Assembly (NCBI RefSeq): GCF_003857035.1
Contig: NZ_QGSY01000282.1
Location: forward strand, 1-64,000
Length of the DNA stretch: 64,000 nt
Reading direction: 5' to 3'
From: Micromonospora arida
GTDB taxonomy: Bacteria; Actinomycetota; Actinomycetes; Mycobacteriales; Micromonosporaceae
Shown here: positions 4,975-44,588 of the stretch, one piece after another
Layout of the letters: every line of letters starts with the position of its first letter
How positions within the stretch are numbered: the stretch's first letter is position 1
Notes under the pieces: model-generated
Told to the model about the DNA's origin: nothing
The model's input: only the letters and a program-made list of their open reading frames with translations
Database searches by the model: none
Position numbers and translations under genes: made by a program

Positions 4975-7455
4975 CTACCTCTTGGCGATCTTGATCGTCG
5001 CGGTGCGGTAGTTGTTGCGCTTGTCGTTCTTCGTCGGGTCGTAGTTCTTCTCGATGTTGCCGGCGCTGTCGACCGAGAACCAGCGGAACGTCGTCGTCTC
5101 GGTCACGTGGAACACCTGCCCTGGCTCACGGAACTCGGTCGCCGCGTAGCGGGGCGACTGGAGCGTGGGCCGGCTGCCATCGGTCGTGTAGTAGATGGTG
5201 GCCGGCTCGCTGGTCTCGAAGTGCACGTCGACAGGCCCGGAGTAGCGCCCCGCACCGGGCACCAGCTGGGACGTCGGGTTCTTGTTGTCCCTGCCCCAGT
5301 CCGCCGCGACCCGGAACATCTCCATGATCCCGTTGGCGTACTCCATCGTCTCGGCGTGGCCACTGACGAGCTCGGGGTTCCCGTCCCACTCCGGCTGGAA
5401 CGAACCGCCCTGCCAGTCGCCGGTGGCCGGGTTGTAGACGGAGCCGCCGACCTCCCAGCCGAACGCGTAGATCCCGTAGGTGTGGTACAGATCCTCGCGT
5501 ACGTTGCCCGCCGAGGAGTAGAGGACGTCGGACGAGCCGCCGACGTTCTCCGGCGTGACGACAGTTTCCCGGTGCGCCTTGACCTGCGACAGGATCCGGG
5601 CGGCGGACTGCCAGTAGAACGCCTCGTCACCCAGTGGCGGACGTGGCGTGGTGATCCGGCCGTCCGCGATGTAGGCACCGGGCTGCCAGAAGAGCTGGCC
5701 GCCGTTGGAGTGCACCGACATCATGAACTTGATGTTCTTGTACTTTTCGACCAGCCAGATGATGTTCTTCGACTCGGGCTCGGACAGCTCCCCCGGCCCC
5801 TGGTAGGTGCCACTGACGCAGTTGGTCGACCCTCCCGCGTAGCCGTCGTGGCCCGACCCGACCCGGTAGTTCCGGTTCAGGTCGACGCCCCAGGAGTTCC
5901 GCTGCGCCGGATCGGCGCTCGCGTCCGGGCAGTGGTTCGTCATGTTCTTACGCTGCGAGGCGAAGTTGTAGAAGCTGTAGTTCGCCCCGTCGGGGTTGTT
6001 GGACAGGATGAAGAAGACGTCGGTGTTCTCGACGATCTTCTTCGTCTCCCGGTCGGACCGGTAGTTGTGCACCAGACGTTCGGCCGACTCCAGGCTGGTC
6101 GTCGCCGGCACCCACTCGCGGGCGTGGTCCTGCGCCTGGATGAGGACACCAGGCTTCTTACCGTCACGATGCTTGCCGATCCGCAGGACCGGGATCGTCG
6201 CGGGGCCGCGCGGCACCTCGCCCTCCGGTGCCCCGACGCGCTTCTGGTCGAGGAAGTCGGTCAGCGCGACCGGGCCGGCCGTCGGAGCGACGATGCCGGT
6301 GCCCTCGTTGGTGCGGTACGGGTGCGCCCGGTCGATGAGCCCCGCAGAGCGGGTCCGCAGCGCCTCGGCCACCTCGGCGGCCGTGCTCGTCGGCGCACCC
6401 GAGGCGTCCGTGGCGAGCAGGACACGAACCGCCTTGCCGGTGACCTCCACCGCGAGCGGAAGGTTCGCGTCGGGCCGGTCCACGAAGTCCACTGTGATGT
6501 CGTTGCCGCCCTGGTGACCCCATGCCGCCGAGGTGACGACGACCGCTGCCTGCCCCGTACCACCGATCTGGGCCTGCGCCTTGCGTTGGTACCCGTTCGT
6601 CTGGTTCGGCAGGTAGACGATCTCGGCGATGTCCGGGTACTGACGGGCGATCTCCATGGCACGGCTGTAGAGCTGCTGCGGGTGACGGTAGCCGTCCACG
6701 AAGTCCGACTTGTAGGACGGGTTCGCCGTCAGCGGCGGCGGGGCGTCCTCGAGCCAGTTCGAGACGACGCCGGTCGCGACGCCACCGGTGGAACTCGTCA
6801 GCTTGATCTTGTTGGGGCGTACGTCGAGCTTGAACAGGTTCCGGTGGAACATGTACTGCCCCGAATCGACGAACCGGCTCATCGTCCGGGCGAAGCCGAA
6901 CGGCGTGCCCTTCCCCGAGTCGTTCTCCAACTGCATCCCGACGATCGGGTCCGCCTGCTGCCCCTCGGTGGTCCGCGCCTCGACGTAGAGGAAGCCCTGA
7001 CCCTTTGTGGTGAACCAGTCGGCGCGAACCACGCGTACCGTCGCGTCGTGGCTGGCCGGCTGGGCCGCCCGCGCGCTGGCCGCGCCGATGCCAATGCCAC
7101 CGTCGGCCTCGTTGCTCCAGGCGAAGCCCGCGTCGTCGCCGAGCAGCTCGACGCCCATCGCCGTGAGTTCGGTGGCCTGCTCGGCGGTCACCACCGCTTC
7201 GCCCTCGATGCCGTTCGGCACGCGCCGGAGGCCATGTTCGAGGTCGAAGCCGGCCGCGGCCACCTTGTCCAGCATGTCCGCGCCGGTCAGCCTGACGTGT
7301 ACGAGGCGTACCGACTCACGATCCTCAGGCTGGGATCGGCTCGCGGCGGCTGACGACCCCGTGGGATCCGCGCCCGCAGGGCCGGTCGTCACGAGGATGC
7401 TACCCACCAGGGTGGACAGCGCGAGTAGCGCGATGCGCCGTTGTGATCGCCGCAT
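4975..7455 (-). CDS. Secreted M14-family zinc carboxypeptidase with C-terminal beta-sandwich
   Basis: 826 residues. An N-terminal signal peptide (MRRSQRRIALLALSTLVGSILV, then GPAGADP) is followed by a propeptide-like region. The peptidase domain has the zinc site QDHAREW near residue 443, the Arg/Asn substrate pair in DLNRNYR, the third zinc ligand in MSVHSNGGQLFW near 581 and the catalytic Glu in YAFGWEVGG near 668. The last ~100 residues (PATIYYTTDGSRPTLQSP and FRWFSVDSAGNIE) form a chitobiase-C/FN3-like module often found on secreted hydrolases. It is expected to cleave C-terminal residues of peptides outside the cell. AAGGAGG precedes the ATG. Confidence 0.93.
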   Translation of the reverse strand: MRRSQRRIALLALSTLVGSILVTTGPAGADPTGSSAAASRSQPEDRESVRLVHVRLTGADMLDKVAAAGFDLEHGLRRVPNGIEGEAVVTAEQATELTAMGVELLGDDAGFAWSNEADGGIGIGAASARAAQPASHDATVRVVRADWFTTKGQGFLYVEARTTEGQQADPIVGMQLENDSGKGTPFGFARTMSRFVDSGQYMFHRNLFKLDVRPNKIKLTSSTGGVATGVVSNWLEDAPPPLTANPSYKSDFVDGYRHPQQLYSRAMEIARQYPDIAEIVYLPNQTNGYQRKAQAQIGGTGQAAVVVTSAAWGHQGGNDITVDFVDRPDANLPLAVEVTGKAVRVLLATDASGAPTSTAAEVAEALRTRSAGLIDRAHPYRTNEGTGIVAPTAGPVALTDFLDQKRVGAPEGEVPRGPATIPVLRIGKHRDGKKPGVLIQAQDHAREWVPATTSLESAERLVHNYRSDRETKKIVENTDVFFILSNNPDGANYSFYNFASQRKNMTNHCPDASADPAQRNSWGVDLNRNYRVGSGHDGYAGGSTNCVSGTYQGPGELSEPESKNIIWLVEKYKNIKFMMSVHSNGGQLFWQPGAYIADGRITTPRPPLGDEAFYWQSAARILSQVKAHRETVVTPENVGGSSDVLYSSAGNVREDLYHTYGIYAFGWEVGGSVYNPATGDWQGGSFQPEWDGNPELVSGHAETMEYANGIMEMFRVAADWGRDNKNPTSQLVPGAGRYSGPVDVHFETSEPATIYYTTDGSRPTLQSPRYAATEFREPGQVFHVTETTTFRWFSVDSAGNIEKNYDPTKNDKRNNYRTATIKIAKR

Positions 7456-41883: not shown

Positions 41884-41920
41884 GGTGTGGCTGCCGTGCC
41901 GGCGGTACGGCAGCCACACC
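41884..41920 (-). terminator. Terminator hairpin after the TraR/DksA-type gene
   Basis: GGTGTGGCTGCCGT (41884-41897) and ACGGCAGCCACACC (41907-41920) form a perfect 14-bp stem with a 9-nt loop, 7 bp past the stop of the TraR/DksA-type gene. It isolates that gene from the oxygenase operon in the same direction. No T-tract is present. Confidence 0.8.
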
Positions 41921-41926
41921 CGGGCG

Positions 41927-42259
41927 TCACCTGTTCTGCTTCTCCTGGCACGGCACGCAGAAGCGAGCGTGCGGGAGAATTTCGAGCCGCTCGGCCGGGA
42001 TGCTCTGGCCGCACCTCTGGCAGGCACCGTAGGTGCCGTCGCTGATCCGGTTCAGCGCACCGGTGATCTGCTCGATGTTCTGGCGGGTGGCCAGCAGCAG
42101 CGCGGCCTGGTTGTGGGCCTCGCCGGGGTCGCCGGTGTCCGCGTTGAGCTCGGTCAGTTCCCGCAGCCGAGCCGTCTGGGTGGCGAAGTCGTCCGCCAGG
42201 GACGCTCGTAGGTCAGCCAGCCAACTCTGGTCGAGAGTAGGACGATGATCGACGCTCAT
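41927..42259 (-). CDS. TraR/DksA-type zinc-finger protein
   Basis: 110 residues from the ATG at 42259 (MSVDHRPTLDQSWLADLRASLADDFATQTARLRELTE), with GGAAGG before it. A coiled-coil hairpin (residues 10-75) is followed by the C4 zinc finger CQRCGQSIPAERLEI, with the second pair in HARFCVPCQ. DksA-like proteins bind in the RNA polymerase secondary channel; in actinobacteria related proteins modulate rRNA and stress transcription. The gene follows an unusual leader containing an intrinsic terminator and a long upstream ORF, which suggests attenuation. Confidence 0.9.
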   Translation of the reverse strand: MSVDHRPTLDQSWLADLRASLADDFATQTARLRELTELNADTGDPGEAHNQAALLLATRQNIEQITGALNRISDGTYGACQRCGQSIPAERLEILPHARFCVPCQEKQNR

Positions 42260-42533
42260 GATCTGCCTTCCAGGGAAAACGGGTGGGAAAAACAAAAAGG
42301 GCCGAAGCTTGGATAGCTTCGCCCTGGCGGTCGTTCTGGGTATGCAACGACTCCGCAGGTGGGCCTCGGCCGGTTCGCATCGGGCTCGACGTTGTGCGCG
42401 CGGGCGCGGTGTGCGGCGCGCGGACAACCGGCACCCGCATGTCGGCCTTGGGACGGGTCGCCGTCGGCACGCGCACAGCACCGCCCACCGCCACCTCGGT
42501 GGCGGCGGGCGAGCGGAAGGTCACCGGCGGCAT
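42213..42533 (-). CDS. Leaderless upstream ORF running through the attenuator
   Basis: 106 codons (MPPVTFRSPAATEVAVGGAV) starting at the predicted transcription start of the promoter at 42540-42568, so the mRNA would begin with AUG. Third-position G/C is high in the first half and falls later. The frame passes through the terminator stem (42298-42325) and ends 46 nt inside the TraR/DksA gene. A ribosome moving along it would melt the terminator. Whether the peptide itself has a role is unknown. Confidence 0.4.
   Translation of the reverse strand: MPPVTFRSPAATEVAVGGAVRVPTATRPKADMRVPVVRAPHTAPARTTSSPMRTGRGPPAESLHTQNDRQGEAIQASALFVFPTRFPWKADHERRSSSYSRPELAG
42288..42325 (-). terminator. Intrinsic terminator (attenuator) in the leader of the TraR/DksA-type gene
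   Basis: On the minus strand AGGGC-GAAGCT pairs with AGCTTC-G-GCCCT (42325-42298, one bulged base, 5-nt loop), followed directly by TTTTTGTTTTT (42298-42288). This is a classic stem plus U-tract, the only one of that kind I see in the window. It lies upstream of the gene's ribosome-binding site, so it would block expression unless bypassed. Confidence 0.75.
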
Positions 42534-42539
42534 GCCCCA

Positions 42540-42568
42540 ACCATAGAGTGGCGTTGCCCTAATGCCAA
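42540..42568 (-). promoter_or_regulatory. Strong promoter of the TraR/DksA-type leader
   Basis: On the minus strand TTGGCA (42568-42563), 17 bp, TATGGT (42545-42540), close to the sigma-70 consensus. The expected start site coincides with an ATG at 42533. Confidence 0.65.
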
Positions 42569-42683
42569 CGTTCGCGGCGGGACCTCGTTCCGGCCACGAA
42601 CTGCCACTTTTCGCCGTAATAGGGCCGTTGCCCGAATCGATCGACGCCGTCCGGTTCTCCGTTGGCACGGTGTCGCCGGTTGG

Positions 42684-43916: not shown

Positions 43917-43948
43917 TTGCGTGACACGCATATTTGCGTGTCACGCAA
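43917..43948. promoter_or_regulatory. Doubled TetR-type operator
   Basis: Arms of 14 bp (43917-43930 and 43935-43948) are perfect reverse complements around TATT. Each half is itself a palindrome, TGCGTGACACGCA (43918-43930) and TGCGTGTCACGCA (43935-43947), with centres 17 bp apart, as if for two dimers. It overlaps the -35 of a promoter whose -10 TAGCGT (43956-43961) puts the start site at the TetR ATG. Confidence 0.75.
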
Positions 43949-43967: not shown

Positions 43968-44588
43968 ATGACGGGGCTGCGGGAGCGCAAGAAGGCCGAG
44001 ACGCGGGCGGCGCTTGGTTGGGCTGCGATCCACCTCACCGCGGAGCGTGGCTACGACAACGTCCGCGTCGAGGACATCGCCGAGGCTGCCGGCGTCTCCC
44101 CGCGTACCTTCAACAACTACTTCTCCAGCAAGGCCGAGGCGATCGCCTCCCGCCACCTCGACCGCAGCCTGCGCACCGCCGCCGCGCTGCGCGAACGTCC
44201 CGCCGACGAGCCGCTCTGGGTGGCGCTCACCCAGGCCGCGCTGGATCAGTTCACGCGCGGTCCCGAGGTCGAGGCGATGCCCTCCCCCGACCATGCCCGG
44301 TGGGTGGCCGGCGTACGCACCATGCTCGCCGAGCCCGCGCTACAGGGCGAGCGGCTGCGCGCCACCGCCCTCGCCGAGGCCGAGCTTGCCGCGGCGGTCG
44401 CCGAGCGCACCGGCACCGACCTCGCCACCGACATGTACCCGAGGCTCGTCGCGGCCGCCGCCAGCGCCGCCGTCGTCGTCGCCATGCAGCACTATCTCGA
44501 CAGCGCCGACCCACCCGCCCCGATCGAACGCCTCATCACCGACGCCTTCACCCAGGTCGCCGCCGGCCTCCCGGCCCCACCCCGCTGA
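43968..44588 (+). CDS. TetR-family regulator
   Basis: 206 residues (MTGLRERKKAETRAALGWAAIHLTAERGYDNVRVEDIAEAAGVSPRTFNNYFSSKAEAIASRHL), a canonical TetR DNA-binding domain with the NYFSSK recognition helix. The variable C-terminal ligand domain ends ERLITDAFTQVAAGLPAPPR. The mRNA is predicted leaderless. The doubled operator over its promoter indicates strong autorepression. The FAD monooxygenase 122 bp downstream is the probable partner gene, so the ligand may be an aromatic compound or drug. Confidence 0.92.
   Translation: MTGLRERKKAETRAALGWAAIHLTAERGYDNVRVEDIAEAAGVSPRTFNNYFSSKAEAIASRHLDRSLRTAAALRERPADEPLWVALTQAALDQFTRGPEVEAMPSPDHARWVAGVRTMLAEPALQGERLRATALAEAELAAAVAERTGTDLATDMYPRLVAAAASAAVVVAMQHYLDSADPPAPIERLITDAFTQVAAGLPAPPR

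Follow-up and report, generated by a model that had tools for sequence, protein, structure and literature searches.

In Micromonospora arida, a TraR/DksA-type gene is preceded by a conserved leader that almost certainly contains a translated, leaderless upstream open reading frame (uORF) and an intrinsic terminator, and that we hold with fair confidence to be a ribosome-dependent attenuator. In the favoured reading, to which we give a probability of roughly 0.6, ribosomes that halt at a conserved R-x-P-P motif within the uORF would attenuate transcription, such that a ribosome on the motif keeps the gene off and ribosome failure turns it on. The sign of this control, with translation that reaches the motif meaning OFF, is put forward with moderate confidence and the halt at R-x-P-P with less, while we infer both the trigger of the switch and the function of the product. 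The leader lies on the minus strand of contig NZ_QGSY01000282.1, within the 64,000-nucleotide stretch of DNA analysed here (the window).

The leader and its distribution

Comparison between genomes establishes, at the level of sequence, the leader, its start codon, its motif and its terminator, together with their linkage to the gene. A preliminary description of the window had named a promoter, a leaderless ATG, a 106-codon frame, a terminator and a TraR/DksA-type gene, and on re-reading the coordinates each of these was found in its place (Table 1). The uORF ATG occupies 42533-42531 (minus strand), seven bases past the -10 box, and from the promoter spacing the transcript is predicted to start at or next to 42533. 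A search of 34-50 kb returned a single sigma-70-type promoter match where shuffled sequences lead to an expectation of 0.6, so this lone match is weak on its own and draws its weight only from conservation. TTGG or CTGG was present as the -35 element at a spacing of 17-18 nt in 28 of 30 alignable representative promoters, and TATGGT was present in 71 of 76 leaders; among the other five, L042 had been assigned an internal start in the same frame, and its usual ATG was confirmed and TATGGT found. No promoter-like match was found for L091. The 30 promoters share no strong conserved position upstream of the -35 element, and an AT-rich box of the WhiB7 type was therefore rejected.

Table 1. Coordinates of the leader and its gene in the window (M. 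arida, NZ_QGSY01000282.1)
Feature	Position	Strand	Remarks
-35 element TTGGCA	42563..42568	-	sequence match
-10 element TATGGT	42540..42545	-	N17 from -35
Leaderless uORF, 106 codons + stop	42213..42533	-	terminates at 42213, within the TraR/DksA gene (42259-41927); in-frame conservation only up to R-G-P-P
Arg-Gly-Pro-Pro codons CGA GGC CCA CCT	42357..42368	-	RAPP-like candidate arrest motif; first Pro codon 42362-42360
GCCC, candidate antiterminator 5' basal arm	42361..42364	-	within the Gly and first Pro codons
Candidate antiterminator upper stem, GCGG/CCGC + UCGUU/AACGA	42327..42356	-	
Intrinsic terminator	42288..42325	-	stem 42325-42298, U-tract to 42288; U-tract ends 28 nt 5' of the TraR/DksA start codon
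GGGC	42324-42321	-	common to terminator and candidate antiterminator
Shine-Dalgarno-like GGAAGG before TraR/DksA start	42266..42271	-	sequence
TraR/DksA-type C4 zinc-finger protein, 110 aa	41927..42259	-	PF01258

The product of the gene matched PF01258 (dksA/traR C4 zinc finger) at 52.4 bits against a cutoff of 24.9. Its scores lay below the NCBIfam cutoffs for the DksA equivalogs (60.6 bits versus 105 for NF033459; 55.4 versus 115.5 for TIGR02420), and the protein is therefore named DksA-type and not DksA proper. Solved chains of DksA and TraR match it by sequence (E 1e-7 to 1e-3), and its family membership suggests that it may bind RNA polymerase. A few bases past its stop codon, at 41884-41920, lies a strong palindrome without a T-tract, which is likewise found in L002, L003 and L007; this is probably the end of the transcript, in which case the gene may be monocistronic in the window.

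A first protein search covered 61 genomes and yielded 30 loci, in which promoter, ATG and terminator were sought without a filter on the peptide. All 28 loci of close same-genus orthologues (57-100% identical) carried the promoter, the leaderless ATG and the terminator; the other two of the 30, homologues of about 50% identity (L029 and L030), were without this set. A second, named genome collection yielded a further 30 loci, 22 of them from the Micromonosporaceae (genera Micromonospora, Pseudosporangium, Jidongwangia, Amorphoplanes and Nucisporomicrobium), and the leader was present in 21 of the 22, the exception being a relic copy (L047). Five of these 21 (L031, L033, L037, L038 and L039) duplicate loci of the first set; both copies are included in the total of 49 loci, and the duplicates were removed for counts of 44 leaders.

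R1, a covariance model built on the 3' portion of the leader, matched 114 of 300 Micromonosporaceae genomes, representing 11 of 44 genera. Stem and ORF start, whose conservation in relatives the preliminary description had proposed as a check, are conserved locus by locus, and the 3' portion of the leader is so at the scale of the family. Across the 300 genomes, an R1 match lay no more than 300 nt upstream and on the same strand for 113 of the 118 protein matches of at least 100 bits, and for none of the 15 weaker matches. The five orthologues without a leader comprise the relic copy L047 (G226:C297) and four others that, when read individually, have no complete leader, two of which (L137 and L138) retain degenerate terminator-like stems. 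In the relic, a second copy in M. orduensis, the terminator tail and flank are retained, the leader is gone and AAG replaces the usual ATG.

Seven of the 120 R1 matches in the family were not upstream of a listed protein match. Two weak family matches (L092 and L093) were taken to be chance terminators, having other genes nearby and no motif. The leader at L096 precedes a TraR-type gene that appears to be internally deleted, and at L132 a uORF with RGPP stands before a TraR-type start that lacks a complete zinc-finger frame. The single-contig genome G151 (L100) holds two equal-scoring copies of leader and gene at its opposite ends (C1:50920 and C1:6742609), which may represent a terminal duplication.

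Outside the family, R1 matched 32 of 298 genomes at the level of the order, 31 of them from its own genus and one weak (E 0.022), and 12 of 296 at the level of the class, two from its own genus and ten weak (E 2.8e-4 to 0.047). Nothing convincing thus points to a spread of the leader beyond the Micromonosporaceae, the 11 weak order- and class-level matches being known by score alone. Searched against Rfam, the 64-kb window gave no match at gathering scores, and the interval 42240-42600 gave below-threshold matches at chance level only.

The leader is also found in front of a second type of gene. At the remaining three of the seven matches, each in a different genome (G237, G274 and G294; L131/L139, L133/L140 and L134/L141), it precedes an MreB/Mbl-like gene of 243-267 aa that matches PF06723 (E 1e-12 to 1e-16), and in two of the three the uORF is very short (22 and 33 codons), with its stop right after DRGPP. 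At 243-267 aa, this protein looks shorter than full MreB. At L144 and L154 the leader is followed first by the TraR/DksA-type gene and then by the MreB-like gene, and 14 of 39 MreB-like matches lay within 400 nt of a TraR-type match on the same strand. The occurrence of the leader before TraR/DksA-type or MreB-like genes suggests a cassette that heads a small cluster of changing membership.

The uORF and its R-x-P-P motif

Eighty distinct leaders were assembled, four of which received no automatic uORF call, leaving a set of 76; this set was chosen for R[GSDA]PP, so that invariance at R, P and P is built into it and the unfiltered evidence for the motif is that of the 49 loci. In these, all 49 uORF peptides contain R-[G/S/D]-P-P (40 RGPP, 8 RSPP and 1 RDPP). 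Two leaders were read individually: L097 carries the motif when read by hand from its ATG, and L106 reads RSPR in its place. R-[A/G]-P-P is described in the excerpts of PMC10987492 as an arrest motif of nascent peptides encoded upstream of secretion genes in many phyla, and structures of RAPP-type arrest peptides are available (PMC10951233, in excerpt). Within the selected set, 61 of the 76 motifs fall within the consensus of the RQH family, (R/Q/H)-(A/G/D)-(P/G/S)-(P/G), with R followed by G (57), D (3) or A (1) and then PP, and the remaining 15 carry Ser, which lies outside that consensus. The same excerpts report that ribosomes were not stalled by most of the RAPP-like motifs taken for testing from proteins of E. 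coli and B. subtilis (PMC10987492), and they list A-to-S among the variants of the arrest peptide ApdP that do not stall (PMC10951233). The likeness of four residues to the RAPP type should accordingly be taken as a lead and not as proof.

The codons of the motif are unusual at two of its positions. CGU or CGA encodes the motif Arg in 18 of 30 representatives, compared with 39 of 317 Arg codons in the downstream genes (p = 1e-8), and CCU or CCA encodes the first Pro in 20 of 30, compared with 10 of 142 (p = 7e-12); at the second Pro no enrichment of rare codons was found (2 of 30). Pausing in E. coli is tuned by the choice of codon within proline pairs (PMC8129111, in excerpt), and an Arg upstream of proline runs favours stalling (PMC4176338, in excerpt). 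Rare codons for Arg and the first Pro, followed by an ordinary codon for the second, count in favour of a programmed pause at the motif, which is thereby supported but not proven. In 75 of 76 leaders the Gly/Ser codon ends in C or T, either of which can pair with G.

Coding constraint is concentrated around the motif. Over the seven codons ending in it, codon positions 1, 2 and 3 differ at rates of 0.18, 0.10 and 0.55 (30 representatives, motif-selected), and amino-acid identity near the motif is 0.52 in frame versus 0.34 and 0.33 in the other two frames, again in the motif-selected set. Past R-x-P-P the frame is not conserved. The distance from ATG to Arg varies from 27 to 121 codons, yet that from Arg to GGGC and the terminator is 40-52 nt (76 leaders chosen for R[GSDA]PP). 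Across the same leaders the uORF ranges from 36 to 288 codons in length, and the 106-codon frame, which the preliminary description had treated as a unit, is in its length best regarded as an accident of GC content. At L002, L004, L032 and L034 the uORF enters the TraR/DksA gene in frame without a stop, making a read-through fusion protein possible; as the frame differs in other species, this looks accidental.

Terminator, candidate antiterminator and sign of control

The terminator of the window folds at -16.5 kcal/mol (z = -3.28), a stability equalled by 1 of 200 shuffled sequences. Across leaders its sequence hardly varies and its pairing amounts to 97.3%, and the two-sided changes seen in relatives were reached by none of 500 shuffles, in an alignment fitted to the terminator structure. 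Runs of at least five T occur at three places in all, counting the two strands of the 64 kb together (minus 42298 and 42292; plus 43914). The claim that U-tract terminators are otherwise absent from the window nearly holds, as a scan for hairpins followed by a T-tract found the leader terminator to be the only strong one, with two much weaker plus-strand candidates at 5279 and 5738. Hairpins listed separately included one of 14 pairs at 43917-43948 (plus strand), with TTT behind it, and three short ones. The former is an inverted repeat of 14 pairs, TTGCGTGACACGCA..TGCGTGTCACGCAA, located just 5' of a TetR-family gene at 43968, and looks like an operator.

When the strand was folded only up to the 5' arm of the terminator, GCCC paired with GGGC in many species, enclosing a linker stem. 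The linker is more stable than shuffled versions of itself, with a mean z of -1.12 and negative values in 66 of 76 leaders, and the mean probability of the GCCC:GGGC pairing was 0.50 versus 0.26 in shuffled sequences, exceeding 0.5 in only 40 of the 76. In an alignment-free comparison of 30 representatives of less than 70% identity, the two halves of the linker paired at -12.4 kcal/mol within species versus -9.9 kcal/mol across species, a difference reached in none of 20000 permutations. When 45 leaders were aligned with MAFFT, 98.3% of the basal GCCC:GGGC cells were paired, some C-to-U changes preserving the pairing as G-U, and this helix showed no two-sided change; the upper helices were 64-66% paired. 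Covariation in this alignment was marginal, its score being reached by 11 of 500 shuffles and equalled by a slide of -1 column. In the window itself the antiterminator fold does not stand out from chance (z = -0.50; 62 of 200 shuffled sequences reached its stability) and the pairing probability of GCCC with GGGC in the trimmed segment is 0.12. In several leaders (for example L012, L019, L026, L027 and L112) the preferred fold is a GUGGCC:GGCCAC hairpin in which GGGC takes no part. Taken from sequence, a GCCC:GGGC antiterminator is likely but not proven. A 9-bp duplex between the motif and the 3' arm of the terminator was rejected as the main antiterminator, since in the alignment, judged by eye, many species have bases at third codon positions that disrupt it.

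In the favoured reading, transcription would begin at the AUG of the leaderless uORF and ribosomes would translate it until one halts, presumably with the first Pro of Arg-Gly/Ser-Pro-Pro in its P site. A ribosome of the usual footprint size at this position would cover GCCC together with most of the upper stem on its 5' side and so block the antiterminator; GGGC, 38 nt downstream in the window, would be left free, the terminator would form about 40 nt on, and RNA polymerase would leave (OFF). Where the motif is not reached, as when translation is inhibited or ribosomes are few, GCCC would pair with GGGC below the covarying upper stem and strip the terminator of its basal stem, and the TraR/DksA-type gene would be transcribed (ON). 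A ribosome held further upstream, or an absent one, would likewise leave the antiterminator free, and in some genomes an MreB-like gene would join or replace the TraR/DksA-type gene as the ON output. For arrest peptides of the RQH family, the excerpts of PMC10987492 report that ribosomes stop when the third residue of the motif occupies the P site. The position of the candidate antiterminator at the motif gives this scheme the opposite sign to that of the preliminary description, in which translation was to melt the terminator. The broader proposal that a RAPP-like arrest peptide acts here outside protein secretion as a default brake, with translation failure releasing a DksA-type factor and its MreB-like partner, is offered tentatively, at somewhat short of even odds.

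The earlier sign is retained as a rival, albeit an unlikely one, on account of a precedent in E. coli, where polyproline upstream of the pyrL terminator raises termination in the absence of EF-P (PMC5021804, in excerpt). Under such a pyrL-like scheme, a ribosome close behind RNA polymerase would turn the gene on and a halted or missing ribosome would leave it off, and the motif would serve as a checkpoint on the translation of proline motifs, for example on EF-P capacity. The uORF frame indeed crosses the U-tract without a stop in 69 of 76 leaders, but the other two frames are equally free of stops (74 and 66 of 76), and the phase between motif and terminator is evenly spread (11, 10 and 9 of 30 representatives), so that the constraint on frame openness predicted by this scheme is absent. 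Moreover, the uORF stops before the terminator in 7 of the 76 leaders, 2-8 codons past the motif, and also in the MreB-like leaders L133 and L134, and the covarying linker stem is given no role. Translation through the terminator was accordingly rejected as a selected feature. Of the earlier proposal, the leaderless uORF, the intrinsic terminator and a control that should depend on ribosomes are supported, with the elements conserved across the Micromonosporaceae; the melting of the terminator by translation is not supported.

Two further schemes are improbable. Classical attenuation by amino-acid supply, with the charging of Arg or Pro tRNA sensed through the rare codons CGA/CGU and CCU/CCA, could draw on the fixed positions of these codons; the uORF peptides, however, contain no run of a single regulatory amino acid, the downstream gene is not biosynthetic, and a ribosome waiting on the rare codons would cover the antiterminator and turn the gene off rather than on. 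A reader other than the ribosome, for example the TraR/DksA-type product acting on RNA polymerase at its own terminator, also has little to recommend it: autoregulation of this kind would fit a protein whose family binds RNA polymerase and a leader that, in the 300 family genomes, nearly always adjoins a TraR/DksA-type gene, but leaves the coding constraint and codon choice at the motif unexplained, and in three genomes the leader stands before an MreB-like gene. The notion that an open frame and a T-tract are meaningless in a genome of 70% GC, to which the many long open frames of the window and a single promoter match near chance might have lent weight, is already contradicted by conservation in 49 loci and linkage in 113 of 118 cases and can be dismissed.

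Relation to known leaders and significance

The leader resembles those of the RAPP-like (RQH) peptides ApdA, ApdP, ApcA and SecM-like in having a uORF, an R-[A/G]-P-P motif, a variable sequence before it and a regulated gene behind it, and ApdA and ApcA are themselves actinobacterial (PMC10951233 and PMC10987492, in excerpt). In contrast to these peptides, the uORF described here is leaderless, 15 of 76 motifs carry Ser and the output is a transcription terminator. The targets also differ, as the RQH survey covered the regions upstream of secA, secDF and yidC (PMC10987492, in excerpt), whereas here they are TraR/DksA-type or MreB-like genes. Peptides of the RQH family also carry an N-terminal localization signal, and their motif sits near the C-terminus of the uORF. 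Here the uORF ends shortly after the motif in no more than 7 of 76 leaders, to which L133 and L134 can be added; in most, among them that of the window, the frame continues, often far past the motif. With the defining context and the C-terminal position both lacking, and with arrest here only a candidate, the leader is not filed in the RQH arrest family.

A closer parallel in layout is provided by the whiB7/wblC and lmrC leaders of Actinobacteria, which likewise place a uORF, an intrinsic terminator and an alternative antiterminator (here a candidate) before the gene. The likeness to whiB7-type leaders had already been drawn in the preliminary description and is borne out by the conservation of leaderless uORF and terminator across the Micromonosporaceae; that the leader works as these do, as a ribosome-dependent attenuator, is held with fair confidence. 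The lmrC uORF overlaps the terminator and loss of its start codon makes expression constitutive (PMC8546547, in excerpt), and stalling in the whiB7 uORF induces the gene (PMC13236596, in excerpt); the sign proposed here is that of both. It differs from them in the class of its gene, the lack of an Rfam family match and the conserved arrest-like motif that lies on the candidate antiterminator. The ilvBNC attenuator of Corynebacterium and the ilvB1 attenuator of Mycobacterium likewise have a uORF that runs over the 5' arm of an antiterminator which excludes the terminator (PMC11109978 and PMC13236596, in excerpt), the antiterminator of the present leader being a candidate, but here the leader has no run of codons for a pathway amino acid and the target is not biosynthetic.

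Adjacent genes of the same two types are found in S. coelicolor, where SCO6164-SCO6166 are dksA-like, dksA-like and mreB/mbl2; the pairing is similar, orthology is not implied, and the excerpts of PMC6629963 and PMC5069765 describe no such leader there. Within the open-access literature, subscription papers being mostly outside it, no description was found of such a leader before a DksA/TraR-type gene.

The leader is compact, conserved and present in cultured relatives of antibiotic producers, and the model makes clear predictions for mutants of the start codon, the motif and the stems. If right, it would join RAPP-type arrest peptides, known mainly from secretion genes, with the drug-sensing attenuators of Actinobacteria, which stand apart in the literature found, and it would provide a route other than the alarmone ppGpp from the state of the ribosome to the level of a DksA-type RNA polymerase factor. 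The comparative evidence suggests that Micromonospora and related soil bacteria may use the state of the ribosome to control transcription and, if this is true, a portable leader cassette would report ribosome failure directly to RNA polymerase in the cells of the Micromonosporaceae.
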